Shown here one piece after another: positions 34,102 to 48,296 of a stretch of DNA of 64,000 bases. The notes beneath the pieces are model-generated. The model was not told the origin of the DNA. It did no database searches and saw only the letters and a program-made list of their open reading frames with translations. Location: contig CP058732.1 in the NCBI GenBank assembly GCA_013414795.1, positions 2,267,737 through 2,331,736 on the forward strand, read 5' to 3'. Source of the stretch: Candidatus Kapaibacterium sp. GTDB taxonomy: Bacteria > Bacteroidota > Ignavibacteria > Kapaibacteriales > UBA2268. The translations under genes and the position numbers were made by a program. Position 1 is the first letter of the stretch, and each line of letters starts with the position of its first letter.

Positions 34102-35709
34102 TCACATTCGGAAGACACCATACTTTTGGTCTGGAATTGGTGCGTTCAAAGCCATCGAAATTCCAAGAGCAAGAGCATTTCTTGTATCCAGTGGGTCGAG
34201 GATACCATCATCCCAGAGCCTTGCAGTGCTATAGTATGGGCTTGCTTCGTCCTCGTATTTTTTTATTATTGGCTCGCGAATAGCCCTTATTTCTTCCTCG
34301 GTTAATGTTTTACCTTGCGCTTCAAGTTGTTTAATTTTCACTGTTGCCAGAACATCTGCCGCTTGTTCACCCCCCATCACAGAAATACGACCGTGAGGCC
34401 ACATCCATAAAAGTCGAGGATTGTATCCCCTTCCACACATCGCATAATTTCCAGCGCCATAGGAACCACCAACAATTACAGTGAACTTAGGCACATCGGC
34501 ATTTGCAACTGCGTGAACCAGTTTGGCTCCGTCTTTTGCAATTCCACCGTGTTCGTATTTTTTACCAACAATGAAACCAGTAATGTTTTGCAAGAAGATT
34601 AATGGAATTTTTCGGATAGTGCAAAGTTCGATAAAATGGGCTCCCTTCAAACTCGATTCAGAAAACAGAACTCCGTTATTCGCAAGAATACCAACGGGAT
34701 AGCCCATTATTCGAGCAAAACCAGTTACCAGAGTTGTCCCATAATATTCTTTGAATTCCTGAAATCTGCTGCCATCAACAATTCGTGCAATGATTTCTCG
34801 AATGTCAAATGGCATTCGAATATTTTTTGGAATAATGCCGTAAATTTCTTCGGGGTCGTAATAAGGCTCCTCTGGCTCTTCGCGTCCAATGTCAAATTTA
34901 TCGGCTTTTCCAAGGTTTTCGACGATGTTCCGTGCAATCTGCAAAGCATGTTCATCGTTCAAAGCATAATGGTCGGAAACACCAGATATTTTGCAATGGA
35001 CATCTGCACCCCCAAGTTCCTCATCGGTAACAACTTCTCCAGTTGCAGCCTTGACAAGAGGGGGTCCACCAATAAAAATCGTGGCTTGGTTCCGCACCAT
35101 AATAGTTTCGTCGCTCATTGCTGGGACATAAGCACCACCAGCAGTGCAAGAACCCATAACAACGGCTATTTGGGGAATATTCATAGCAGACATTCGAGCC
35201 TGGTTGTAGAAAATTCTACCAAAATGCTCCTTGTCGGGGAAGGTCTCTGACTGGTATGGTAGGAAAATCCCACCAGAATCTACCAGATAGATACAAGGCA
35301 GACGGTTTTGCATTGCAACTTCTTGAGCCCGAACGTGTTTTTTAATTGTCATTGGGAAATAAGTTCCCCCCTTGACTGTTGCATCGTTTGCAACAATCAT
35401 ACATTCGCGACCTTTTACAACTCCAATTCCTGTGATAATTCCGGCGCAAGGGGCTTCGTTGTCATACATATCCCACGCTGCGAGTGGAGAGAGTTCGAGG
35501 AATGGGGTATCGGGGTCACACAACTTGCGAATCCTTTCTCTTGGCAATAATTTCCCTCGACTAATATGCTTTTCGCGGGCTTTTTCTGGTCCTCCTTGCT
35601 TGACCTTCTCAAGCCGTTCTTTTAATTCGTTAACTAAACGGATTGAATTTTCATAGTTTTCTTTGAACTCGGGCGACTTTGTGTTGATTTTCGACTTAAA
35701 TCTTTCCAT
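34102..35709 (-). CDS. Acyl-CoA carboxylase carboxyltransferase (beta) subunit, methylcrotonyl-CoA carboxylase type
   Basis: The 535-aa protein has the two crotonase-fold halves of biotin-dependent carboxyltransferases. It matches the methylcrotonyl/geranyl-CoA branch: [86 protein letters not shown], and [20 protein letters not shown]. The C-terminal half has the oxyanion glycine loop [20 protein letters not shown]. It would carboxylate 3-methylcrotonyl-CoA in leucine breakdown, but specificity is inferred. The biotin carboxylase (alpha) subunit is not in the window. A small DUF6125-like gene is 6 nt upstream and icmF overlaps that gene, forming a unit. Confidence 0.9.
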
Positions 35710-35715
35710 TTACTC

Positions 35716-36234
35716 CTATTCCTTTAAAGTAAACTTCCAAATACAATAAAATTCTGGATTTGTAATATCTGGCGGGCACGAAACTGCCTCGGTTTCTATT
35801 CTGCAATCAATAGTTTTTGCAAACAATGAATACTCGACAATTCCAACAGATTTGCAAGGGAAATCCGGTAAGCCTTTTCGACGTCGGGCTTCTTGCACAC
35901 GGCAAGCTTTTACATAATGGACTAGTTCATTCGGGGTAATATATTTGGAAAACTGTTCGTTGATTGTAGAATAAAGTCGAAATTTCAAGGCTTTGCGTAA
36001 GCCTTCCAAGCCAGAATTGTTTTCCAATTTCAAGAATTCCTTAATTCTTCGAGCCTCAATTTGCGTGAATTGTTCCCAAGCGTCTCGGTCAAACTCAATC
36101 GCTTTTTCAATTCCCAACTTCTTTTCAATTGCAAGAAACCAACAACCGTCGTGGGCAAGCCAATTTTTTGCATATATTTTAACCAACTCTAACAGTTCTG
36201 CACTATCCAATGATTCAATACTATCTTTTGCCAT
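35716..36234 (-). CDS. DUF6125-like protein between icmF and carboxylase
   Basis: A 172-aa cytosolic protein without signal or membrane segments. Conserved-looking features are NWLAHDGCWFLAIEKKLGIE (AHDGxWF motif), QIEARRIKEFL, and a Cys-rich C-terminal half with HYVKACRVQEARRRKGLPDF, PCKSVGIVEYSLFAK and AVSCPPDI. This pattern is that of DUF6125, related to L-2-amino-thiazoline-4-carboxylate hydrolase-like proteins; no function is established. Conserved Cys in ACR, PCK and SCPPD suggest a metal or redox site. Its ATG overlaps the icmF stop by one base (TAATG), so it is translated coupled to the mutase. Confidence 0.6.
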   Translation of the reverse strand: MAKDSIESLDSAELLELVKIYAKNWLAHDGCWFLAIEKKLGIEKAIEFDRDAWEQFTQIEARRIKEFLKLENNSGLEGLRKALKFRLYSTINEQFSKYITPNELVHYVKACRVQEARRRKGLPDFPCKSVGIVEYSLFAKTIDCRIETEAVSCPPDITNPEFYCIWKFTLKE

Positions 36235-39200
36235 TACATTCCTCTACGATACTTGCCACCAATTTCATAGAGAAGATGGGTTATTTCTCCCATAGTGCAA
36301 TACTCGACAGCATTCAGCAACTCTTCGAAAATATTTCCTTTGGAAATCGCAACATTACGCAAACGGTCGAGTGCCTCTTGTTTCTTGTCCTTATGTTTTT
36401 CCTTGAATTCGGCAACGTGTCTCAATCGTTCTTCTTTCTCTTCAATTGAAGCACGCGTTACTTTCATATTATCGTAATAATTCACTGGGTTCTCGTTTAT
36501 AAATGTATTTACACCAATTATTGGATACTCGCCACTTTCTTTGAGCGATTCATAATAAAGCGACTGTTCTTGAATTTTCGAGCGTTGGTATTGGGTTTCC
36601 ATTGCACCCAGCACGCCCCCTCGCCGAGAAAGTGCAAGGAATTCGTCGAGCACAGCCTCTTCGACAAGGTCGGTCAATTCTTCGATGATAAAGGAACCTT
36701 GATTCGGGTTTTCGTTTTTGAGAACACCAAATTCCTTCGATAGAATTAACTGAATTGCCATTGCCCGACGAACCGATTCTTCCGTCGGCGTTGTTATTGC
36801 TTCATCATAAGAATTGGTATGCAACGAGTTGCAATTATCATACATAGCAAGCAAGCCTTGGAGTGTGGTTCGAATATCATTGAAATCAATTTCTTGGGCG
36901 TGTAAACTTCTTCCAGAAGTTTGAATATGGTATTTCAATTTTTGGCTTCGTTCATTTGCGCCATAAACATATTTCATTGCAATAGCCCAAATTCGGCGGG
37001 CAACCCTTCCAATCACAGAATATTCTGGGTCCATACCATTCGAGAAAAAGAAGGAAAGGTTGGGGGCAAAATCGTCGACTGGAATACCACGGTTTAAGAA
37101 ATATTCCACATAAGTGAAACCATTTGCAAGTGTGAAAGCAAGTTGAGTAATTGGATTGGCTCCCGCCTCTGCTATATGGTAACCACTAATACTCAACGAA
37201 TAATAATTTCTAATTTTATGTTTGGAAAGATATTCTTGCACATCCCCAATCAATCTCATTGCAAAGTCAATGGAAAAAATGCAAGTGTTCTGCCCTTGGT
37301 CCTCTTTCAGCATATCTGCTTGAACTGTCCCACGCAACTTTCTAAATGTTTCGATTTTAAGTTTTTCTTTATCCTCTTCCGATAATTCAATTCCTTGTGC
37401 TTTTAACTTTTCGAGTTCACGCTTGTAGGCAACCATAAAATAGAAGGCAACCATAATCGGAGCGGGAGCATTTATTGTCATCGAAACGGAAGTTAGCGGG
37501 TCGGTCTGGTCGAAACCATCCAGAAGCACATCCATATCGTCGATAGTGCAAACCGAAACGCCACTTTCGCCAATTTTGCCGTAAATATCGGGGTCCCGTG
37601 CAGGGTCTTCACCATAAAGTGTTACACCATCGAAAGCAACGGAAAGTCTTTTGGCTCGGTCATTTTTGGTTAAGTAATGAAATCTTTTGTTTGTACGAGC
37701 AGGTCCACCTTCGCCAGCAAATTGACGCTTCGGGTCTTCTGTCGTCCGTTTAAAAGGAAAAACGCCAGCGGTATATGGGAAGTATCCTGGTAGATTTTCT
37801 AAATAGAGAAACTTCAATAAATTGCTCCAATCTTCGAATTTCGGCAGGGCAACTTTTGGTATATATGTCCCGCAAATCGATTTGTTGTAAAGGTCAATTT
37901 CAACTTCTTGGTTTTGTATTTTGTATTTTAATCGGTCCTGTTGGTAAAGCCTTTTTCTTTCTTCCCAGGTGAGGAGAAGTTCTTGCGAATCTTTGGACAA
38001 CTCATTCCACTTCTTTTGAAAAAGTTCATTCAGTCGATGCATTAATTCGCCGTTTTGATTTTCGCTTTTAAGAACGTCAATACTCTTCTTTAATGAATAA
38101 GCCTCCTCGGCAATTTTGCATTGCTCTTTGACCATTTTTTTGTACTTACGGACAGTTTCAGCAATTTCGGCAAGGTAGTTTATTCGCTTATTGTTTATAA
38201 GCCCGAAATCTTTTTGCAAATCAGTCGGAAGAAGTTCAATGACATCCTCTTTTACACCGTAATCACCCTTTTTGACATCAATCAACAATTTCAGTAGCGC
38301 CTTGAAAAATTTGTTTACACCGTGATTGTTGAATTGATTGCTGCTACAAGCAAAAATCGGTAAATCAAGAGACTCAAGAGGCACACCACGCGGTACTTGA
38401 AGTTGATGAGTTCGAATGTAATGGATAATCACTTCTCGGAGAGCATCTTCAGAACCAATTTTTTCGAATTTGTTTATCACAATGAAGTTAGCGAGGTCCA
38501 ACATATCGATTTTTTCCAACTGGCTTGGTGCTCCGAATTCTGCGGTCATCACATATACGGAATAATCTACCAGCGAGGTAACCTGGCTATCGCCTTGACC
38601 AATTCCAGGCGTTTCTACAAATATTAGGTCGAAGCCACAAGTTTTCAGCAATTTGATTGAGTCGTGGACAAATTGTCCAAAATCACTTCCACTATTTCTT
38701 GTTGCAAAACTACGGAAAAATACCCTTGGGTCGTATATGTGATTGTAACGAATGCGGTCTCCAAGAAGAGCGCCGCCCGTCGTGCTTTTTGTTGGGTCGC
38801 TGGCAAGCACTGCAATGTTAATTTTTGGAGCATATGCAAGGAATCGCCCGATGATTTCATCAATTAATGAACTTTTCCCAGCGCCGCCTGGACCGGTGAA
38901 CCCTATTACAAGTGATTTACCCTTATCGTATTTATCAAACAATTCTCTTAATCGTTCAGCATTTTCGTGGTTGGGCAATTGTTCTTCAATGTATGTGATT
39001 TGCTTGGAAATAAGAAAGTGGTCATTAACATTGTTGTTACTAAGAATTTCTTCAGAAATTTCTTTAAGCCACTTTGCTTCAATTCTTGGCTTGTTTTCCT
39101 TTATCCTTCGAATAATGTCGTCGGCAATACCATTTATTCCTAATTTTTGGCCATCAACAGCGTGGTAAAGTTTCGTAACGCCGTACTCCTCCAAGGCTTT

Positions 39201-39500
39201 GATTTCCGAAGGTAGTATCACACCACCGCCTCCACCAAAAATTTGTTTTTCTTCGGCATTGTACTCTCGCAATTGGTCAACCAGAAAACGAAAATATTCG
39301 TTGTGTCCACCTTGGTAGGAACTAATAAGCAAGGCATCAACATCTTCTTGAATTGCAACAGTTACAACTTCACGAACTGAACGATTGTGCCCAAGATGGA
39401 TTACTTCTGCACCACGCTTTTGAAGAAGCCTTCGGAAAATATTAACAGAAACATCGTGACCATCGAACAATGCCGTGGCTGTTAAAACTTTTATGTTCAT
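36234..39500 (-). CDS. icmF: Fused isobutyryl-CoA mutase IcmF
   Basis: A 1088-aa adenosylcobalamin enzyme. Domains in order: cobalamin-binding N-terminus (FDGHDVSVNIFRRLLQKRGA, IHLGHNRSVREVV, about 1-135), a MeaB-like GTPase chaperone (Walker A GPGGAGKSS near residue 205, ETPGIGQGDS, NKFEK), a helical linker, and the mutase TIM barrel (about 560-1088). The substrate pocket reads LPGYFPYTAGVFPFKRTTED and GEGGPARTNKRFHYL, the IcmF form with Phe where methylmalonyl-CoA mutase has Tyr. It interconverts isobutyryl-CoA and n-butyryl-CoA and can act on isovaleryl-CoA. Here it would route valine carbon into butyryl-CoA oxidation. It overlaps the DUF6125 gene by one base. Confidence 0.96.
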   Translation of the reverse strand: MNIKVLTATALFDGHDVSVNIFRRLLQKRGAEVIHLGHNRSVREVVTVAIQEDVDALLISSYQGGHNEYFRFLVDQLREYNAEEKQIFGGGGGVILPSEIKALEEYGVTKLYHAVDGQKLGINGIADDIIRRIKENKPRIEAKWLKEISEEILSNNNVNDHFLISKQITYIEEQLPNHENAERLRELFDKYDKGKSLVIGFTGPGGAGKSSLIDEIIGRFLAYAPKINIAVLASDPTKSTTGGALLGDRIRYNHIYDPRVFFRSFATRNSGSDFGQFVHDSIKLLKTCGFDLIFVETPGIGQGDSQVTSLVDYSVYVMTAEFGAPSQLEKIDMLDLANFIVINKFEKIGSEDALREVIIHYIRTHQLQVPRGVPLESLDLPIFACSSNQFNNHGVNKFFKALLKLLIDVKKGDYGVKEDVIELLPTDLQKDFGLINNKRINYLAEIAETVRKYKKMVKEQCKIAEEAYSLKKSIDVLKSENQNGELMHRLNELFQKKWNELSKDSQELLLTWEERKRLYQQDRLKYKIQNQEVEIDLYNKSICGTYIPKVALPKFEDWSNLLKFLYLENLPGYFPYTAGVFPFKRTTEDPKRQFAGEGGPARTNKRFHYLTKNDRAKRLSVAFDGVTLYGEDPARDPDIYGKIGESGVSVCTIDDMDVLLDGFDQTDPLTSVSMTINAPAPIMVAFYFMVAYKRELEKLKAQGIELSEEDKEKLKIETFRKLRGTVQADMLKEDQGQNTCIFSIDFAMRLIGDVQEYLSKHKIRNYYSLSISGYHIAEAGANPITQLAFTLANGFTYVEYFLNRGIPVDDFAPNLSFFFSNGMDPEYSVIGRVARRIWAIAMKYVYGANERSQKLKYHIQTSGRSLHAQEIDFNDIRTTLQGLLAMYDNCNSLHTNSYDEAITTPTEESVRRAMAIQLILSKEFGVLKNENPNQGSFIIEELTDLVEEAVLDEFLALSRRGGVLGAMETQYQRSKIQEQSLYYESLKESGEYPIIGVNTFINENPVNYYDNMKVTRASIEEKEERLRHVAEFKEKHKDKKQEALDRLRNVAISKGNIFEELLNAVEYCTMGEITHLLYEIGGKYRRGM

Positions 39501-39526: not shown

Positions 39527-40666
39527 TTATTTCAATAGATGTCTTGAAATTATTAATCTTTGGATTTCGCTTGTACCCTCGTAAATTTCAGTAATTTTTG
39601 CATCCCTATAATAACGTTCGACGTTAAAATCTTCGGTGTAACCGTAACCGCCGTGAATTTGGATTGCTTTACGGGCAGCGTCCATTGCAACCTCGGAAGC
39701 CTTCAGTTTTGCCATAGAGGCTTCGACAGAATAAGGAAGCCCTTTGTCTTTCATCCAAGAAGCTCGCCAAGTGAGTAGCCAAGCTGCGTTGTATTCCATC
39801 CACATATCTGCAAGCATCCATTGAATTGCTTGGAAATTGGCAATTGGTTGGTCAAATTGAACACGCTCTTTTGCATATTTAACCGAATCTTCTATGCAAG
39901 CACGAGCAATCCCGAGCGCCTGTGCTGCAATACCTAAACGACCACCGTCAAGGGTCACCATTGCAACTTTAAACCCTTGATTTAATTCTCCGAGCAAATT
40001 TTCCTCTGGTACCTCTACATTTTCGAGAATAATTTCAGCAGTCGAAGAAGCCCGAATACCCAATTTTCGCTCGATTTTGCCAATTCTATAGCCCGGCATA
40101 TCTTTTTCAACTATGAAGGCGCTAACTCCTTTGGTCTTCTTTCCCGGGTCAGTTGAAGCAATTAGAACAAAAATATCGGCTTCCGCACCATTGGTTGCAA
40201 ACAACTTAGAGCCATTGAGTATCCATTTGTTCCCAACTTTTACAGCAGTCGTTTTCGTGTTCCCAGCATCGGAGCCGGCTTGCGCCTCGGTCAACGAGAA
40301 ACTTCCAATTTTCTTACCAGAGAGTAAATCTGGTAAGTACTTTCTCTTTTGCTCTTCGGTACCAAATCTGTAAATTGGGTCGCAAACCAAAGACGAATGG
40401 GCAGAAATTATTACCCCAGTGGAGGCACACCAACGGGAGATTTCCTCAATTGCTAGGAAATAGGATACGAAATCCATACCGGCGCCCCCATATTCTTGCG
40501 GGTATGCAATGCCCATAAGACCAAGTTCCCCCGCTTCTCGGATTATATCCCAAGGGAAGCGGTGATTTCGCTCGTTATCAGCGGCGACGGGGGCAATTTT
40601 CTCTTTCGCAAACTTCGAAACCATCTCTCGAAGCATTTTCTGTTCTTCTGTCAACAAGTAATCCAT
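39527..40666 (-). CDS. Acyl-CoA dehydrogenase (short-chain/butyryl-CoA type)
   Basis: A 379-aa flavoprotein. Motifs are LTEEQKMLREMVSKFAKEKI, the FAD motif FSLTEAQAGSDAGNTKTTA, YGGAGMDFVSYFLAIEEISR, GGRLGIAAQALGIARA, HGGYGYTEDFNVERYYRDAK, and ITEIYEGTSEIQRL with the catalytic Glu. It removes hydrogens from saturated acyl-CoAs, passing electrons to ETF. The start is the ATG at 40666, which has AAAGGAG 5 nt upstream; an upstream in-frame extension of 52 AT-rich codons is not credible. It lies 26 nt upstream of icmF, so butyryl-CoA made by IcmF is the likely substrate. Confidence 0.95.
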   Translation of the reverse strand: MDYLLTEEQKMLREMVSKFAKEKIAPVAADNERNHRFPWDIIREAGELGLMGIAYPQEYGGAGMDFVSYFLAIEEISRWCASTGVIISAHSSLVCDPIYRFGTEEQKRKYLPDLLSGKKIGSFSLTEAQAGSDAGNTKTTAVKVGNKWILNGSKLFATNGAEADIFVLIASTDPGKKTKGVSAFIVEKDMPGYRIGKIERKLGIRASSTAEIILENVEVPEENLLGELNQGFKVAMVTLDGGRLGIAAQALGIARACIEDSVKYAKERVQFDQPIANFQAIQWMLADMWMEYNAAWLLTWRASWMKDKGLPYSVEASMAKLKASEVAMDAARKAIQIHGGYGYTEDFNVERYYRDAKITEIYEGTSEIQRLIISRHLLK

Positions 40667-40687
40667 AACAACTCCTTTACAAAAACA

Positions 40688-40695
40688 CAAAATTA
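40688..40695 (-). promoter_or_regulatory. TAATTTTG box, putative -7 element for acyl-CoA dehydrogenase
   Basis: On the minus strand CTAATTTTGTG lies 21 nt before the ATG at 40666. The 139-nt divergent gap also serves the second acyl-CoA dehydrogenase on the plus strand, whose promoter is not clear. Confidence 0.5.
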
Positions 40696-40805
40696 GTTTG
40701 ATAATTAAAAAAAATTTTGTTAATATTATATTTTCAATATATAAAAATTCTTCGTAACTAAAAAAGCGATATTTAAAATTTGTATAGAAAACCTTAAAAA
40801 GCTTT

Positions 40806-41966
40806 ATGGAAAACAAGTTCAACTTAACAAGCGAACAACAAATCCTTCGAGAGACTGTCCGACGCTTCGCAGAAGAGGAAATAAAACCAAAAGTACGAGA
40901 ACTCGATGAAAAAGAGGAGTTCTCCTATGAACTAACTGCAAAAATGGCTGAAATGGGTTTCCTTGGTTGTTTCATACCAGAAGAATATGGTGGCTCGAAC
41001 TTGGATTATCTTTCCTACATCATGATTGTAGAAGAAATAACACGAGTGGATAGTTCACAAGGAGCAACAGTTGCAGCCCACAATTCTCTCGGCATCGGTC
41101 CAATTTATTATTTCGGCAACGAAGAACAGAAGCGAAAGTATTTGCCAAAATTAGCTTCGGGATACCTCTGGGGTTTCGGTTTGACCGAACCCGAGGCTGG
41201 AAGCGACGCTGGCAACACTAAAACAACAGCCGTAAAATCTGGAGACAAGTGGATAATTAATGGAACGAAAATTTTCATTACCAACGCATCGACTGACGTA
41301 ACTCTTGGCTCGACAATTTTAGCAGTAACCGGAACATTGCCCAACGGGAAGAAAGAATACACTTGCTTTCTCGTCGAAAACGGAACACGTGGATTTACAG
41401 CACGCCCGATGAAGCACAAAATGATGTGGCGTGCCTCGAACACGAGCGAACTCATTCTCGAAGATGTCGAAGTGCCCGAGGAAAACATCCTTGGCAAACG
41501 AGGCGATGGCTTTAAACAAATGCTCAAAACTCTCGACAACGGACGGCTTTCCATCGCTGCAATGGGTTTGGGGCTTGCCCAAGGTGCGTTCGAATATGCT
41601 CTGAATTATGCAAAGACACGTAAAACTTTCGGACAGCCAATTTCCACACACCAAGCGATTGCTTTCAAACTTGCAGATATGCAAATGCAAATCGACCTTG
41701 CTCGTACATATTTATATAATGTTTGCAGAATGTTGGACAACGGACAAAAAATAACGATGGAATCGGCAATTGCAAAATTATATTGTTCGGAAGTTGCCCA
41801 CTCCTGCGCCAATCATTGTGTTCAAATTCTTGGCGGTTACGGCTTGATGAAAGAATACGATGCAGAGCGATTTTATCGCGACCAAAAAATCCTTGAAATA
41901 GGCGAAGGTACTAGCGAAATCCAACGACTCGTCATTGCTCGATCTATTGGTTGTTTTGATATTTAG
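40806..41966 (+). CDS. Acyl-CoA dehydrogenase (second)
   Basis: A 386-aa homologue of the divergent gene: LTSEQQILRETVRRFAEEEI, GFGLTEPEAGSDAGNTKTTA, AVKSGDKWIINGTKIFITNA, NGRLSIAAMGLGLAQGAFEY, LGGYGLMKEYDAERFYRDQK and ILEIGEGTSEIQRLVIARSI (catalytic Glu region). Identity to its divergent neighbour is moderate, so they probably act on different acyl chains, for example isovaleryl/isobutyryl-CoA against butyryl-CoA; the exact substrate cannot be read. It starts the plus-strand run that continues into the unknown protein and the HMG-CoA synthase operon. Confidence 0.95.
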   Translation: MENKFNLTSEQQILRETVRRFAEEEIKPKVRELDEKEEFSYELTAKMAEMGFLGCFIPEEYGGSNLDYLSYIMIVEEITRVDSSQGATVAAHNSLGIGPIYYFGNEEQKRKYLPKLASGYLWGFGLTEPEAGSDAGNTKTTAVKSGDKWIINGTKIFITNASTDVTLGSTILAVTGTLPNGKKEYTCFLVENGTRGFTARPMKHKMMWRASNTSELILEDVEVPEENILGKRGDGFKQMLKTLDNGRLSIAAMGLGLAQGAFEYALNYAKTRKTFGQPISTHQAIAFKLADMQMQIDLARTYLYNVCRMLDNGQKITMESAIAKLYCSEVAHSCANHCVQILGGYGLMKEYDAERFYRDQKILEIGEGTSEIQRLVIARSIGCFDI

Positions 41967-41975
41967 GTTTTGTAT

Positions 41976-42686
41976 ATGCCAATAAATAAGCACTTTATAC
42001 AGAATTTACCAACAAACCCACTACTTGGAGAAACAAAAATTATCGAAGAATTCAGAAGAATTCTCGACGAAGCCAACAAAACTGGAAATCGCGATTCATT
42101 TTACGAAGATTTTCTTGACCTGTTTAGCCTTTATCAAGTTTATGCTGCAAAGCATTCGCTTGAAATTCTTTTTCCACCATTAACCAACGACAAAAAAATA
42201 AACACTGGAATTATCATAAATTTTTTTGAAACAAGACAGAAAGAAATCAACGAACAGTTGGAAGACGTGTTGGCTTTGAAAACTCTTGCCGAGAAGAAAA
42301 CTGCTTTCGAAACTATACTCAGCCGCGATACAACATACAATTTAACAGATAAAGATTTGAACGATTTATACCACAAAATCGATTCCATTATTGATTCAAT
42401 TAATGAAAATTTTGATATAAAACGAAATCTGAAATCGAGGCTTATAAATTTGCTTGGAAATTTAAAAAGAGATTTGAAACCAGAGATGGCTAATTTCGAT
42501 AAATTTTGGGCATTAGTTGGGTATACTGGTATCCTCTATGGTCTGTACGAAGAGAAGGTAATGAAAATTCTTGACCGAATCAAAGATGTTCTAAATTATA
42601 TTTGGAAAATTCAAGCAAAAGCAGAAGGTGTCCCAACGACTAATCCAGTAATCACTATTATTTTCAAAGAAATTTCACAAAAATGA
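41976..42686 (+). CDS. Helical cytosolic protein of unknown function
   Basis: About 236 aa, start ATG at 41976 (the TTG two codons earlier is less likely). The product is highly charged and predicted all-alpha, with no signal, membrane segment or recognised motif. Segments such as KKTAFETILSRDTTYNLTDK and DLNDLYHKIDSIIDSINENF and the C-terminal FWALVGYTGILYGLYEEKVM suggest a four-helix-type domain. I do not recognise the family. It is placed between an acyl-CoA dehydrogenase (9 nt) and the HMG-CoA synthase (25 nt), so it is likely cotranscribed with acyl-CoA genes. Confidence 0.75.
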   Translation: MPINKHFIQNLPTNPLLGETKIIEEFRRILDEANKTGNRDSFYEDFLDLFSLYQVYAAKHSLEILFPPLTNDKKINTGIIINFFETRQKEINEQLEDVLALKTLAEKKTAFETILSRDTTYNLTDKDLNDLYHKIDSIIDSINENFDIKRNLKSRLINLLGNLKRDLKPEMANFDKFWALVGYTGILYGLYEEKVMKILDRIKDVLNYIWKIQAKAEGVPTTNPVITIIFKEISQK

Positions 42687-42711: not shown

Positions 42712-43764
42712 ATGGTTGGAATTGTTGGATATGGCGCATATGTTCCAATCTATCGAATCAAAAGCGCTACAATAGCAAACCAATGGGGAAGCGATCCTGC
42801 ATCTATTGAAAAAGGGCTGATGTTGATTGAAAAGACCGTTCCCGGACCAGATGAAGACACAATAACCATCGCAATCGCTGCGGCTAAAAATGCTCTTAAA
42901 AGGGCTCGAATCGACCCACAAAAAATTGGAGCAGTTTACATTGGCTCGGAATCCCATCCATACGCTGTTAAGCCGTCCGGAACCGTTTTAATCGACGCAT
43001 TGGGAATTGGACCACACGTCCACGTCGCCGACTTTGAATTTGCTTGCAAGGCTGGGTCAGAAGCGATGTATGTAGCATATAGCCACGTCAAGAGTGGAGA
43101 AATGGAATATGCGATGGGAATTGGAGCAGATACCTCCCAAGGAGCCCCGGGTGATGCTCTTGAATACAGCGCATCTGCTGGCGGTTCTGCCTTCATATTT
43201 GGGAAAGAAAATGTTGTTGCCGAGGTTCTATATACGCATTCATTCACAAGCGACACGGCTGACTTTTGGAGACGTGAACATCAAATTTATCCCCGACACG
43301 GCGGTAGGTTCACAGGCGAGCCAGCCTATTTCAAACATATTCTTGGTTGTGGAAAAGCATTGCTGGAGAAATCTGGAATGAAACCCGAGGATTTCCAATA
43401 TGCTGTTTTCCATATGCCAAATGGAAGGTTCCCATTGAAGGCTGGGAAAGAACTTGGCTTCAAACAAGAACAAATGTCCGAAGGCTGGATTGTCAACATT
43501 ATGGGCAACACATATTCGGGTTCGTCAATCACGGGATTAACTGCAATACTTGATGTGGCAAAGCCGGGCGATTTGATTTTTATGGTTTCCTTCGGTTCTG
43601 GGGCAGGAAGCGATGGCTTTATTTTTAGAGTTACCGATAAAATTACCGAAGTCCAAAATCTTGCACCCAAGACTCGCGAAATGTTAAACACACCACACAA
43701 AGTCTATCTTGATTACGGGAAGTATGTTGCTTACAGGAAGAAAATTCAATTCAATGAATATTAA
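42712..43764 (+). CDS. Archaeal-type hydroxymethylglutaryl-CoA synthase
   Basis: A 350-aa thiolase-fold enzyme that closely follows the archaeal HMG-CoA synthase pattern: MVGIVGYGAYVPIYRIK, IGAVYIGSESHPYAVKPSGT (Glu80 in SES), FEFACKAGSEAMYVA (nucleophile Cys112), MGIGADTSQGAPGDALEYSA, and FHMPNGRFPLKAGKELGF (His234). The catalytic triad is complete. It condenses acetyl-CoA with acetoacetyl-CoA, or runs in reverse. Mevalonate genes are absent from the window. A GGAG site 7 nt from the ATG supports the start. Thiolase and DUF35 genes follow within 18 and 1 nt, the order known in archaea where the three form one complex. Confidence 0.93.
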   Translation: MVGIVGYGAYVPIYRIKSATIANQWGSDPASIEKGLMLIEKTVPGPDEDTITIAIAAAKNALKRARIDPQKIGAVYIGSESHPYAVKPSGTVLIDALGIGPHVHVADFEFACKAGSEAMYVAYSHVKSGEMEYAMGIGADTSQGAPGDALEYSASAGGSAFIFGKENVVAEVLYTHSFTSDTADFWRREHQIYPRHGGRFTGEPAYFKHILGCGKALLEKSGMKPEDFQYAVFHMPNGRFPLKAGKELGFKQEQMSEGWIVNIMGNTYSGSSITGLTAILDVAKPGDLIFMVSFGSGAGSDGFIFRVTDKITEVQNLAPKTREMLNTPHKVYLDYGKYVAYRKKIQFNEY

Positions 43765-43782
43765 CAAAATGTGAGGTAATCG

Positions 43783-44931
43783 ATGCGAGAAGTTGCTATT
43801 ATAGGAGTAGGAATGACAAAGTTCGGCGAACTTTGGGAACAAAGCATTCGCGATATGTTCGCCGAAGCGGCTTTAAAAGCAATGGAAAATGCAAAAGTTG
43901 AAAAAATCGACGCATTATATGTTGGGGCTATGTCGAGCGGTCTTTATGCATACCAGGAACATCTTGCTTCATTGATGGCAGATTACGTTGGACAAATCGG
44001 TGTTCCCGCAGTTCGAGTTGAATCTGCTTGCTCTTCCGGCGGTCAAGCAGTAAGAATGGGATATATCGATGTTGCTTCTGGAATGCACGACATTGTCCTT
44101 GTTGGTGGCGTTGAGAAAATGTGGGATGTTGAAGACGGAACTTTTGTCCTTGCAACTGCCTCGGACCAAGAGTATGAAGCATACAATGGAGTAACCTTTC
44201 CCGGTCTTTATGCAATGATTGCACGGGCATATATGGAACGTTACGGATTAACTCGGGAAGAATTGGCGCAAGTTCCAATCAAAAACCACAAGCACGCAGT
44301 CAACAATCCTAATGCCCAATATCCATTTGAAATTGATTTAAAAACCGTTTTAAATTCGTCGATGGTTGCGGACCCATTAAGGCTTATGGATTGCTCACCT
44401 ATAACAGACGGCGCAGCCTGTGTTATTCTTTGTCCACTCGACCGGGCAAAGGAATTTACTGACAAATATGTTAAAATACGTGGAGTTGGCGCGGCAACTG
44501 GACCAATCGCTTTGCACGACCACAAAGATTTGACACGGCTCGAGGCAGTCAATATTGCAGCACAAAGGGCTTACAAAATGGCTGGCGTCGGACCCGAAGA
44601 TATTGATTTCGTCGAGGTACACGATTGCTTCTCCATTGCCGAAATAGTTGTTGCCGAGGAACTTGGCTTCTTCGAATATGGTAAAGCTGGGAAAGCAATT
44701 GCCGAAGGGCAAGGCACATACGGCGGGAAAATTGTCATAAATCCCAGCGGTGGTTTAAAAGCAAAAGGACATCCAGTTGGCGCTACTGGCGTTGCACAAA
44801 TCATCGAAGCCTACTACCAGTTGACAAATCAGGCTGGGAAGCGTCAAGTCCAAAATGCTCGCTTAGGAATGACCCAGAATATGGGTGGTTCAGGTGGAAG
44901 TTGTGTTGTTCATATTTTGGAGGGAATGTAA
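43783..44931 (+). CDS. Archaeal-type thiolase (acetyl-CoA acetyltransferase)
   Basis: A 382-aa thiolase of the short archaeal class. It begins [20 protein letters not shown]; nucleophile Cys83 lies in [35 protein letters not shown] and [17 protein letters not shown] supply the later active-site residues. It interconverts two acetyl-CoA and acetoacetyl-CoA plus CoA. In archaea this enzyme, HMG-CoA synthase and a DUF35 protein form a complex that passes acetoacetyl-CoA on directly. The operon order here (HMGS, thiolase, DUF35) is the same. A GAGG site is 6 nt from the ATG. Confidence 0.92.
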
Positions 44932-44932
44932 A

Positions 44933-45325
44933 ATGGCAAATAGTCAAAGATATACAAGGGAAATACCACACCGCTATCGTCTGGAAGCCCAAAAGTTTCC
45001 GAGCGGTTTCGTTTCTTTGCCAAATCGTTATGTTGACCCAATTTCTGGCAAAAAAGAATTCGAAAAAATCAAACTTCAAGGGTTTGGAACTATCTTATCA
45101 TATACTATTATCCACATTGCAAGCGACCAGTTTAAATTGCTAACTCCTTATGCAGTTGCAATAATCGAAACAGACGAAGGCGCCAGAGTTACTGCAATGA
45201 TAACCGACACCAACTTCGAAGACTTAAAAATCGGAGCACGTGTTGAATTTGTATTAAGGAAAATTATGGAAGAGGGCGCAAGCGGAATTATTAATTATGG
45301 ATATAAAGCAAAAGTAATTGGCTAA
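44933..45325 (+). CDS. DUF35 OB-fold protein lacking zinc-ribbon cysteines
   Basis: A 130-aa protein starting at the ATG at 44933, which has GGAGGG 8 nt upstream and follows the thiolase stop by one base. The C-terminal OB-fold is normal: LQGFGTILSYTIIHIA, LTPYAVAIIETDEGARVTAM, DLKIGARVEFVLRKI, and INYGYKAKVIG. The N-terminal part keeps the family frame HRYRLEAQKF and LPNRYV and EFEKIKL, but the four zinc-binding Cys expected between them are all replaced (F-PSG and DPIS), and the whole protein contains no Cys. In archaea DUF35 bridges thiolase and HMG-CoA synthase and shares their CoA site. The loss of zinc is therefore notable. Confidence 0.88.
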   Translation: MANSQRYTREIPHRYRLEAQKFPSGFVSLPNRYVDPISGKKEFEKIKLQGFGTILSYTIIHIASDQFKLLTPYAVAIIETDEGARVTAMITDTNFEDLKIGARVEFVLRKIMEEGASGIINYGYKAKVIG

Positions 45326-45345: not shown

Positions 45346-45378
45346 AAGCCCCCGCGAAGTTGCGGGGGCTTTTCTTTT
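45346..45378 (+). terminator. Strong terminator after HMGS-thiolase-DUF35 operon
   Basis: A 10-bp GC-rich stem, AAGCCCCCGC with GCGGGGGCTT, and a 6-nt loop are followed by TTCTTTT. It lies 20 nt after the DUF35 stop and one base from the convergent phosphoesterase stop. Confidence 0.9.
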
Positions 45379-46054
45379 AATAATCGCAATTGAAAGTGTA
45401 GTACAACTTGCCTTTATCAATGTCAAATGCACAAAGATATCCTAATGTTTTTTTAAATGGTGAATTGGCATAAACGCATCCGCCGTCAAGGAAAATTTTC
45501 CAATGATTCAATGAATCTAATATTTTGTCCAAAGGAGTGGGTGTGTGTCCCACGATTAATTTCCTCATACCAATTTTGGCTGGGTCAACTCTTTGGCTTC
45601 GACCCCAAACAATGTAATGTTTATCCTCGAAAGGGTCATCTAAATCGAAATTTAAGTCTCCGTGTGCAAGCACATAGTTTTCGAGTTCCACATAAAACGG
45701 CATAGATTCAAAAAAATGAATGTAATCGACAGGTATATCTTTGGGATGGTCTACTCCAAAACCCTTCAATGTTGCATCGCATCCATTGTATTCCCAGTTT
45801 ATCAAAGCAAAAGGGTCATCGATAGCATTTAAAAGCATATCCTCGTGGTTTCCCCGAACTGACAACGCCTTTCCTCTTTCCCATAAATCTTTTACAAAAT
45901 CCACAGTTTGTTTAACTCTTGGTCCGCGGTCAATCAAATCTCCCAAGAAATAAATGAAATCTGATGAAGTTATTTTTACCACTTCGAAAAGCAATTTTTT
46001 CAAAGTTAGGAAACAACCGTGAACATCGCCAACCACAATTCTTGATGTCACCAT
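45377..46054 (-). CDS. Metallophosphoesterase (PPP-type phosphatase)
   Basis: A 225-aa calcineurin-like phosphatase with all motifs in order: VVGDVHGCFLTL (GDxHG), FLGDLIDRGP (GDxxDRG), SVRGNHEDML (GNHE), AHGDLNFDL and IVGHTPTP (GHxxP). Those residues bind two metals. It resembles bacterial serine/threonine phosphatases and bis(5'-nucleosyl)tetraphosphatases (ApaH-like); the substrate is open. It is transcribed divergently from the E1 gene with a 103-nt gap and convergently with the DUF35 operon. Confidence 0.92.
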   Translation of the reverse strand: MVTSRIVVGDVHGCFLTLKKLLFEVVKITSSDFIYFLGDLIDRGPRVKQTVDFVKDLWERGKALSVRGNHEDMLLNAIDDPFALINWEYNGCDATLKGFGVDHPKDIPVDYIHFFESMPFYVELENYVLAHGDLNFDLDDPFEDKHYIVWGRSQRVDPAKIGMRKLIVGHTPTPLDKILDSLNHWKIFLDGGCVYANSPFKKTLGYLCAFDIDKGKLYYTFNCDY

Positions 46055-46157: not shown

Positions 46158-48296
46158 ATGAAGAATTCAACTACTGCAAAGAAAAAAACAAAGAAAGCAG
46201 AAACAAACGGAAGCAATGAAATCGTTAAAATAATTTATCTCGGAAAAGAACGCGAAGTAGAACTTTACAGTAAATTCGATTTTGAAGGTTTCGACAGAGA
46301 AACAATTCTTAAATGGTATAAATTAAACCAACTTGGAAGACGCCTCGACGAAAAGGCTGCTCTTTACTTAAAGATGGCAAAAGGATGGTCCTACCACGCC
46401 CCATTCGGTGGGCACGACGGAATACAATTGGCTTTGGGACAAGTCTTTCGTGCTGGCAAAGACTTCCTATTCCCCTACTACCGCGATATGCTTACCTCCC
46501 TTTCTGCTGGAATAACCCCGTACGAAATAATTTTAAACGGTTTGAGCAAAGAATACGATGTTGCTGGGGGTGGTCGCCATATGAGCAATCATTTCGCTAA
46601 ACCATCGATTCGTATCCAAAATGTCTCTTCTTGCACTGGAAACCACGCCCAACACGCCGCAGGCCTTGGTCGAGCAATTAAAAGATATGGTGGAGACGAA
46701 ATTGTTTTCTGTTCCACTGGGGAATCTGCAACTGCCGAAGGCTATTACTACGAAGCAGTCAACAGTGCTTCCACAGAAAAACTTCCCGTTGTGTTCGTAA
46801 TTCAAAACAATAAATACGGAATTTCGGTTCCCCTGCACGAAGTAATGGGAAATTTAAATGTTGCAGAAAATTTCGCTGGTTTTAAAAATCTTAAAATTAT
46901 TAGTTGCGACGGACGGGACCCATTCGATTCCTATCGAGCATTAATGTCTGCTATTGAATGGGTCAAGTCGGGAAATGGACCCGCAATGGTTCACGCTGAT
47001 TGCGATAGAATAGGTTCCCACTCCAATTCTGACAACCACGAACTTTATCGTTCCCCAGAAGAACTGACAACGGTTATGCGTCGCGACCCACTTCTTCAAT
47101 TCCGTTATCACATATTAAACAAAAACATAGCAACAGAAGAAGAACTTCAAGAAATTGAATCAGAAAATCAAAAAATAATTTTCGAGGCAGCAGACAAAGC
47201 AGAACAAACCCCTGATGCAGACGGAAGCCAATGGAACAAATTCATTATACCAGAACCCTACATTCCGAAAGACGCGAAAACAGAAGAATATGAACCCGAA
47301 CCCAATGCTCCGCTTATTTCACTTCGAGAAGCAATTAACCAGACATTGATTGAGGAGTTCCAACGAAATCCAAATACATTCCTTTGGGGACAAGATATTG
47401 GCAAAGGAGGCGTATTCAACGTCGTTAAAGGAATGCCCCAAATGTTTGGCAAAGAACGTGTATTTAATGCACCAATTGCCGAAGATAATATTGTTGGAAC
47501 TGCTAACGGTTTCTGCCGATACCGTGACGATATTCGAGTAGTCATCGAAGGGGCAGAATTTGCTGATTACTTCTGGCCAGCAATGGAACAGTTGGTCGAA
47601 TGTTCCCACGACTACTGGCGAACAAAAGGACAATTTACTCCAAATATTGTTATTCGATTGGCAAGTGGTGGATACATTCAAGGAGGACTATACCATTCAC
47701 AAAACATCGAAGGGGCTTTGGTAACTCTGCCTGGCATTAGAATTGTAACTCCAGCCTTCGCCGACGATGCAGTTGGTTTGATGCGAAACGCAATCCGCTC
47801 TCGCGGGGTTACAATGTACCTCGAACCAAAATTTCTTTACAACTTTAAGAATGCATTTGCTCCCAAGCCCCATCCAGAATTTGTTGTTCCTTTCGGAAAA
47901 GCAAAAATCCGAAGGGAAGGAAAAGATGTAACTGTTGTTGCATACGGTACCGCTGTCCACTTATCATTGTTCGCCGCTAAGGAATTGGAACGCGAAGGCA
48001 TTTCTGTCGAAGTTATCGACTTGCGTTCTTTGATACCCTGGGACGAAGAACTGGTATTCGAATCGATAAAGAAAACAAACCGAGTTGTTATTGCCCACGA
48101 GGATAAAGTTACTGGTGGCTTCGGTGGTGAAATTGCAGCAAAGATAAGTGAATTTGCATTTAATTACCTCGATGCGCCGATTGTCAGAGTTGGTTCGAAA
48201 GACGTCCCTGTCGGCTTTGCAAAAAGTTACGAAAATGCCATTCTACCAAACACTAACGATGTGATAAACGCAATCAAGAAGGTTTTAAACTTTTAA
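46158..48296 (+). CDS. Fused alpha/beta 2-oxoacid dehydrogenase E1 (branched-chain type)
   Basis: A 712-aa thiamine diphosphate enzyme with the two E1 subunits in one chain. After a Lys-rich N-terminal tail, the alpha part (about 40-340) shows RRLDEKAALYLKMAKGW, FPYYRDMLTSLSAGI, GGGRHMSNHFA, GNHAQHAAGLGRAIKRYG and the ThDP motif region STGESATAEGYYYEAVNSAS with NNKYGISVP. The beta part (about 385-712) has LREAINQTLIEEFQRNP, GQDIGKGGVFNV, NAPIAEDNIVGTANG, FADYFWPAMEQLV, and VEVIDLRSLIPWDEELV with VTGGFGGEIAAKI. It decarboxylates a branched 2-oxoacid and loads the acyl group onto E2; E2 and E3 are not in the window. Similar fused E1s are common in Bacteroidetes. It fits supply of isobutyryl- and isovaleryl-CoA to neighbouring genes. 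Confidence 0.93.
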   Translation: MKNSTTAKKKTKKAETNGSNEIVKIIYLGKEREVELYSKFDFEGFDRETILKWYKLNQLGRRLDEKAALYLKMAKGWSYHAPFGGHDGIQLALGQVFRAGKDFLFPYYRDMLTSLSAGITPYEIILNGLSKEYDVAGGGRHMSNHFAKPSIRIQNVSSCTGNHAQHAAGLGRAIKRYGGDEIVFCSTGESATAEGYYYEAVNSASTEKLPVVFVIQNNKYGISVPLHEVMGNLNVAENFAGFKNLKIISCDGRDPFDSYRALMSAIEWVKSGNGPAMVHADCDRIGSHSNSDNHELYRSPEELTTVMRRDPLLQFRYHILNKNIATEEELQEIESENQKIIFEAADKAEQTPDADGSQWNKFIIPEPYIPKDAKTEEYEPEPNAPLISLREAINQTLIEEFQRNPNTFLWGQDIGKGGVFNVVKGMPQMFGKERVFNAPIAEDNIVGTANGFCRYRDDIRVVIEGAEFADYFWPAMEQLVECSHDYWRTKGQFTPNIVIRLASGGYIQGGLYHSQNIEGALVTLPGIRIVTPAFADDAVGLMRNAIRSRGVTMYLEPKFLYNFKNAFAPKPHPEFVVPFGKAKIRREGKDVTVVAYGTAVHLSLFAAKELEREGISVEVIDLRSLIPWDEELVFESIKKTNRVVIAHEDKVTGGFGGEIAAKISEFAFNYLDAPIVRVGSKDVPVGFAKSYENAILPNTNDVINAIKKVLNF

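Follow-up and report, generated by a model that had tools for sequence, protein, structure and literature searches.

Thiolase, 3-hydroxy-3-methylglutaryl-CoA (HMG-CoA) synthase (HMGS) and a DUF35 protein form one complex for mevalonate synthesis in archaea. The thiolase and the synthase of this complex are described as sharing a single CoA-binding site, which is held by the DUF35 protein, and acetoacetyl-CoA as not being released (PMC12329534). Here we analyse the genes for three such proteins (the trio) at positions 42712-45325 of a 64,000-nucleotide stretch of Candidatus Kapaibacterium sp. (assembly GCA_013414795.1, contig CP058732.1, positions 2,267,737 to 2,331,736). This stretch is called the window, and corresponds to G000:C1:2267737-2331736 of the single-contig window genome (2.66 Mb, 97.65% complete); G and L numbers denote our genomes and loci. 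We propose, with a probability of about 0.6, that the trio encodes an archaeal-type thiolase/HMGS/DUF35 complex which does not serve mevalonate synthesis but runs in reverse in the catabolism of leucine (and isovalerate).

HMG-CoA lyase is usually taken as the standard last step of leucine degradation, and HMGS as a forward, committed step. In the liu operon of Pseudomonas the gene order is methylcrotonyl-CoA carboxylase (MCC) beta, hydratase, MCC alpha and HMG-CoA lyase. MCC beta, hydratase and MCC alpha follow each other in a like order in 15 loci with the trio; unlike liu-type operons, however, these loci place the trio ahead of MCC beta and contain no lyase above the curated cut-off. The isovaleryl-CoA pathway of Myxococcus (MvaS, LiuC, AibABC) likewise combines an HMGS with a LiuC-type hydratase. 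The Myxococcus HMGS belongs to the bacterial MvaS type and acts in the forward direction, whereas the one described here is of the archaeal type and is accompanied by thiolase, DUF35 and a biotin-dependent MCC. HMGS-like, thiolase-like and DUF35 proteins are also joined in one complex in the PhlABC acyltransferase (5M3K). The archaeal complex itself reportedly occurs in some bacteria. The protein families are thus already known, and it is the proposed lyase-replacing role in leucine degradation that would be a new variant; among the openly licensed literature searched, we recognised no paper on this trio in leucine degradation.

The trio consists of the following elements:

42712..43764, plus strand: archaeal-type HMGS, 350 amino acids (TIGR00748, 507 bits; PRK04262, 530 bits)
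43783..44931, plus strand: SCP2-type acetoacetyl-CoA thiolase, 382 amino acids (PRK06064, 543 bits)
44933..45325, plus strand: DUF35 OB-fold scaffold protein, 130 amino acids (PF01796 match of the longer frame, 6esq_E, homologue alignment)
45346..45371, plus strand: terminator-like hairpin, 11-pair stem followed by a T run

The HMGS lies well above the curated cut-offs of the archaeal equivalog TIGR00748 (353 bits) and of PRK04262 (244 bits). The thiolase exceeds the cut-off of the broader PRK06064 subfamily (420 bits) and, at 548 bits, stays slightly under that of the acetyl-CoA acetyltransferase equivalog NF053570 (AcCoTHIOL_METTL; 600 bits), while the third open reading frame matches Pfam family OB_ChsH2_C (DUF35, PF01796) at 63.5 bits. 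For all three proteins the top solved relatives are chains of the archaeal complex 6ESQ, namely 6esq_I for HMGS (426 bits), 6esq_A for the thiolase (413 bits) and 6esq_E for DUF35 (77.8 bits); PhlABC is more distant, with 196 bits for HMGS and 125 bits for the thiolase. All 85 aligned homologues of HMGS share Glu80, Cys112 and His234, and in the thiolase Cys83 is retained by all 80 homologues compared and His330 by all 75. These are the residues expected at the active sites of the two families. HMGS and thiolase genes are separated by 18 bases and thiolase and DUF35 genes by a single base. The most likely start of the DUF35 gene is ATG 44933, because the homologue alignment begins there, GTG 44885 being just the first start of the frame. 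Terminator-like sites are not in excess in the region (6 observed versus 5.2 in shuffled sequences), and the stem at 45346-45371 is by far the longest among them. A preliminary description of the window, made from its letters, had reported a tightly spaced trio with intact Glu-Cys-His and Cys residues ending at a strong terminator, and in all these points it was right. The dN/dS ratio of the thiolase is low (0.035 and 0.039 against two relatives), and values of 0.015-0.051 were obtained for the neighbouring IcmF and acyl-CoA dehydrogenase genes; for HMGS, DUF35 and MCC beta, as for IcmF in the comparison with L004, synonymous change had reached saturation, and only finite ratios are given.

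The window trio resembles the archaeal complex in all three proteins and in the conserved residues, and according to the preliminary description its genes also follow the archaeal order. It differs in being bacterial, in lying beside leucine-catabolic genes and in belonging to a genome without HMG-CoA reductase. A further difference concerns DUF35, which has no cysteines at the zinc-ribbon site in the window. The exact CxxC..CxxC pattern is present in 54 of 72 homologues, and among the 18 without it L039 and L059 show a C-x-C variant. Because the zinc-ribbon cysteines are absent, the scaffold of the window may differ from that of 6ESQ.

According to our proposal, MCC and methylglutaconyl-CoA hydratase would yield HMG-CoA, which HMGS, running in reverse, would convert to acetoacetyl-CoA and an acetyl-enzyme; CoA would then free acetyl-CoA from the latter. 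The thiolase, at the shared CoA site, would immediately cleave acetoacetyl-CoA with a second CoA, so that HMG-CoA and 2 CoA would give 3 acetyl-CoA and water. On chemical reasoning, this thiolysis would pull the unfavourable reversed HMGS step. The route would replace HMG-CoA lyase as well as the subsequent activation of acetoacetate. The proposal draws on gene linkage, on operon genomes having no lyase above the cut-off, on the absence of HMG-CoA reductase from most genomes and on conserved active sites; complex formation, the reverse direction and an identical function in the window genome despite its scattered genes are presumed from these. The preliminary description had suggested such a role in place of the lyase for the window itself. 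This appears well supported for the wider family and only partly for the window genome, which has a lyase homologue and lacks a dedicated hydratase. Whether a channelled thiolase/HMGS/DUF35 machine turns HMG-CoA into three acetyl-CoA across some six phylum-level bacterial groups (by record title), instead of lyase and acetoacetate activation, we regard as an evenly balanced question. If so, it would explain how leucine breakdown finishes without free acetoacetate in many uncultured bacteria, it would provide a case of one coupled complex operating in both directions, and it could correct annotations that place these genes in the mevalonate pathway.

Gene linkage was analysed in the best 80 of at least 580 HMGS relatives, found in genome contigs by patterns from the window protein; by title nearly all are metagenome bins, whose completeness is not stated and whose names may be wrong. 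All frames of these loci were annotated, and genes up to 8 kb downstream of HMGS in the same orientation were counted. Thiolase follows in 76 of the 80 loci and DUF35 in 69; the other genes are rarer, with 22 loci for MCC beta, 18 for the hydratase, 17 for biotin carboxylase and 15 for biotin carrier. All but one of the 18 loci with a hydratase also carry MCC beta, and in 21 of the 22 MCC-linked loci MCC beta is at most 475 bases from DUF35 (1.8 kb in L072). Fifteen loci show the fixed order HMGS, thiolase, DUF35, MCC beta, hydratase, biotin carboxylase and biotin carrier, with other genes interspersed in a few. By record title these belong to Aminicenantes, Zixibacteria, Coatesbacteria, Gemmatimonadota, Ignavibacterium, a deltaproteobacterium and one further bacterium. 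In L043 the carrier lies slightly past the 8 kb. Five of the other seven MCC-linked loci are at or near a contig end, L038 is without hydratase, and in L072 no carboxylase or carrier was detected. The operon hydratase of L053, the one that was scanned, matched PRK07468 and gamma-carboxygeranoyl-CoA hydratase best, both under the cut-off.

In a tree of HMGS (85 rows, with 6ESQ as outgroup; like the carboxylase tree, the product of a quick search) operon linkage was scattered, with 10 changes for 22 linked rows, mostly on lower branches. This fits an old linkage followed by dispersal, repeated joining being the alternative. A second thiolase-DUF35 pair was seen in G174 (L186:6348-12807), followed by MCC beta, hydratase, biotin carboxylase and carrier, with four acyl-CoA dehydrogenase frames beyond; HMGS does not adjoin this site, and the genome shows no lyase match. 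Eight regions around more distant carboxyltransferases (39-46%) of HMGS genomes were also inspected; in six, all Gemmatimonadota by title, the carboxyltransferase is accompanied by mutase and hydratase genes.

HMG-CoA lyase was scored with the curated model NF004283 and its cut-off in 53 HMGS genomes, of which 19 represent the 22 operon loci (L051, L054 and L080 were left out) and 34 are others; G194 duplicates G116, and the two count as one. No lyase above the cut-off was found in any of the 19 operon genomes, compared with 12 of the 34 others. Twelve operon genomes gave no match, six gave matches of at most 60 bits, and G177 held two fragments at contig ends (135 and 109 bits). All 19 show a citrate synthase match, a weaker one of some 100-120 bits in the case of G172, G175 and G188, and 18 have dxr or HMG-CoA reductase, so assembly gaps hardly account for the missing lyase. 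Fisher's test gives 0.002 for any lyase above the cut-off in operon versus other genomes, a figure that ignores kinship and mixes lyase classes and is not relied upon here. The argument rests instead on operon genomes having MCC and hydratase yet no known enzyme for HMG-CoA.

With the fragments of G156 and G158 set aside, the lyases above the cut-off fall into two classes by motif. Class A, with the motif GGCPYAPGA.GN, occurs in G173 and G196, and in G173 it ends a cluster of MCC beta, hydratase, biotin carboxylase, carrier and lyase, that is, the version of the liu-type order with a terminal lyase. Class C has GGCPFTK...GN and is encoded in ten genomes, the window genome among them; the fragments of G177 are also of this type, one of them beside Iso_dh. 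Seven of the ten class C genes have Iso_dh, a CaiB-type CoA transferase and aconitase as neighbours, and the other three have one or two of these within the stretch examined. Against solved HMG-CoA lyases the window genome's class C protein reaches at best 197 bits, compared with 272 bits for the class A protein of G173. We infer that class C cleaves a substrate other than HMG-CoA. Among 36 genomes with a closely related MCC beta (at least 64% identity) a class A lyase was found in one. G109, which belongs to the same family as the window genome, encodes an MCC beta of 76% identity and, with no HMGS above the cut-off, a full-length lyase homologue of 189 bits, under the cut-off; this single case is suggestive of a swap of lyase for HMGS. 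As a control for MCC without HMGS, the MCC-like carboxyltransferases found in other Bacteroidota (some 50% identity) were considered and set aside, since the genomes that encode them may or may not have lyase homologues and no substrate can be assigned to them.

As the archaeal trio has the same genes, it might be thought that the bacterial trio belongs to, or is left over from, a mevalonate pathway of archaeal origin, and HMG-CoA reductase is indeed present in 6 of the 53 HMGS genomes. (G179 was left out of this count, its 52-bit match covering part of the profile, though above the Pfam cut-off.) However, dxr of the methylerythritol phosphate route was found in 46 of the remaining 47, and the active sites of the trio are intact, with the low dN/dS of the thiolase. 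In the window genome reductase (PF00368) is absent, with positive controls, and dxr is present (477 bits); because of both, the trio is, as judged from gene content, not for mevalonate there. A complete mevalonate pathway together with an ordinary lyase, which the preliminary description had named as contradicting its proposal, is accordingly not what this genome contains. We consider an origin in mevalonate synthesis very improbable in general and largely refuted for the window genome. Reductase without dxr was found in four HMGS genomes (G157, G171, G183 and G195).

The genes around the trio in the window bear on its role and are listed here:

34102..35709, minus strand: MCC beta (carboxyltransferase), 535 amino acids, assigned by human MCCB and Pseudomonas MCC scores
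35716..36234, minus strand: DUF6125 protein (PF19620, 251 bits)
36234..39500, minus strand: IcmF, fused isobutyryl-CoA mutase/GTPase (NF045497, 1584 bits; cut-off 1500)
39527..40822, minus strand: acyl-CoA dehydrogenase (family match)
40806..41966, plus strand: acyl-CoA dehydrogenase upstream of the trio (family match)
41970..42686, plus strand: 238-amino-acid protein between the dehydrogenase and HMGS (no Pfam or NCBIfam match)
46158..48296, plus strand: fused E1 alpha-beta of a 2-oxoacid dehydrogenase, 712 amino acids (family match)

The carboxyltransferase at 34102-35709, noticed earlier as an MCC-like subunit, matches human MCCB with 795 bits, MCC beta of P. aeruginosa with 778 bits and geranyl-CoA carboxylase with 476 bits, versus 289 bits at most for the separate group of propionyl-CoA carboxylase beta subunits. 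Its highest hit, 9TPS (812 bits), is named propionyl-CoA carboxylase, and the AccD1 entry 4Q0G (774 bits) acetyl-/propionyl-CoA carboxylase. We assign it as MCC beta by score, the names at 774-812 bits not being uniform. A biotin carboxylase and carrier are encoded 83 kb away at G000:C1:2386242; in the tree this carboxylase groups with those of Kapabacterial MCC clusters (SH-aLRT 100), while the other two carboxylases of the genome fall outside. By these assignments the window genome has complete MCC genes (beta, alpha and biotin carrier), including the alpha subunit for which the preliminary description had proposed a search. The gene beyond the trio, described as a branched-chain E1, is a fused E1 alpha-beta of a 2-oxoacid dehydrogenase, and a single minus-strand open reading frame (45377-46054) separates it from the trio. 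The four nearest relatives, L002-L005, share the arrangement that runs from MCC beta to the trio, with the MCC beta of L005 truncated by a contig end.

A number of observations weigh against the reversed complex in leucine catabolism. The reaction of HMGS normally runs strongly forward. Linkage to MCC is found in a minority of loci: MCC beta was not seen downstream in 58 of the 80, some of which lie on contigs that end, and where at least 7 kb of downstream sequence is available it is present in 16 of 42 loci and absent from 26. The clade that holds the window HMGS is well supported and comprises 47 rows, of which one is a linked locus. In G171 and G183 an MCC-linked trio occurs together with HMG-CoA reductase, dxr not having been found; in these two genomes it may have a part in both mevalonate synthesis and leucine breakdown. 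Trio and leucine-type lyase are not strictly exclusive, as G173 and G196, the genomes with class A lyases, hold the trio elsewhere, and if only leucine-type lyases are counted operon genomes contrast weakly with the other HMGS genomes (0 of 19 versus 2 of 34). In the phylum sample a closely related MCC beta without HMGS was found solely in G109. Both dehydrogenases near the trio keep the Glu whose replacement we take to be the signature of isovaleryl-CoA dehydrogenase.

The remaining points of this kind concern the window genome itself. A search for the methylglutaconyl-CoA hydratase, as the preliminary description had advised, found no dedicated LiuC-type enzyme in this genome, the best protein being 34% identical to a Kapabacterial one. 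Five other Kapabacteria-like genomes keep the dedicated hydratase (57-100% identity to a query taken from one of these five), whereas the nearest relatives G148-G151, as well as G153 and G157, reach at most 34%. The best candidate in the window genome is a short-chain crotonase with 47% identity to the hydratase of L042 and 46% to that of L028. The window genome also encodes a lyase homologue (G000:C1:158415-159290) which, at 293.7 bits, is above the cut-off for HMG-CoA lyase.

This homologue, of class C, may have HMG-CoA lyase activity. Were it the HMG-CoA lyase of the window lineage, the trio would do other work, for example making HMG-CoA or acetoacetate in a ketogenesis-like manner. In favour of this are the score above a curated cut-off and matches of as much as 197 bits to HMG-CoA lyases of solved structure. 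On the other hand, its motif GGCPFTKQPAGN is unlike the GGCPYAPGASGN of the MCC-cluster lyase, which reaches 272 bits with the same solved lyase. Its gene moreover belongs to a conserved cluster with Iso_dh, CaiB and aconitase that is also present in G014 and G097, which have no HMGS above the cut-off, and in three Gemmatimonadota loci CitE- and CitF-like genes accompany Iso_dh and/or aconitase near HMGS. The search for an HMG-CoA lyase in the window genome has a divided outcome: a homologue above the cut-off was found, while motif and neighbours point to another substrate, and we hold it unlikely that this homologue is the HMG-CoA lyase and the trio does other work. In the window genome the cluster (Iso_dh, class C lyase-like protein, CaiB CoA transferase and aconitase large subunit) lies at L082:6393-11457 (G000:C1, about 155.4-160.5 kb). 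Lyase and transferase together may form a system like citrate lyase or related to it. The pair was also considered as a replacement for citrate synthase and rejected, as the genome has a citrate synthase (314 bits).

The main rival to the reversed complex is a synthetic direction of the same module, in which 3 acetyl-CoA would give HMG-CoA and then methylglutaconyl-CoA, and MCC would act as a decarboxylase to form methylcrotonyl-CoA and hence isovaleryl-CoA for iso-branched fatty acids, in the manner of the Myxococcus pathway. It would require identical genes and would keep HMGS in its normal direction. A lyase would counteract it, and none above the cut-off is present in the operon genomes. 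However, the Myxococcus route employs the decarboxylase AibAB and the reductase AibC, not a biotin-dependent MCC (AibAB was not searched for here), and the gene order of the trio loci is that of catabolic liu operons, a biotin-dependent MCC likewise fitting catabolism. Acyl-CoA dehydrogenases near several loci and the 2-oxoacid dehydrogenase E1 in the window also speak for degradation. We judge the synthetic direction improbable and prefer the reversed complex in leucine catabolism.

The minus-strand acyl-CoA dehydrogenase probably starts at 40666, because its top family match sets in at Met53. Dehydrogenases with an EIGEGTSEIQR-like motif, comparable to that at 40806-41966, adjoin the module or its carboxyltransferase in several relatives. 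Among the loci compared, the 238-amino-acid protein is restricted to the clade of the window. The same is true of the DUF6125 protein, and this clade is the one without a dedicated hydratase. DUF6125 was therefore considered as a stand-in hydratase. Its model is of low confidence (pLDDT 70); the best PDB match is a phenol-sensor domain (E 1.3e-3), Bet3-like folds matching no better, and there is no crotonase among the 50 matches shown, so this candidate was dropped.

Second HMGS-like frames occur near the trio on the opposite strand in L017 (6759-7418) and L018 (4968-5999). The closest HMGS relatives of the window are mostly titled Kapabacteria or Ignavibacteria. The nearest, L002 (95%), is on a contig with accession RCNO01, an accession given for the bin MS-B_bin-24, described as 'Candidatus Thermonerobacter thiotrophicus' (Ca. 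Kapabacteria) from hot-spring mats (PMC6338057).

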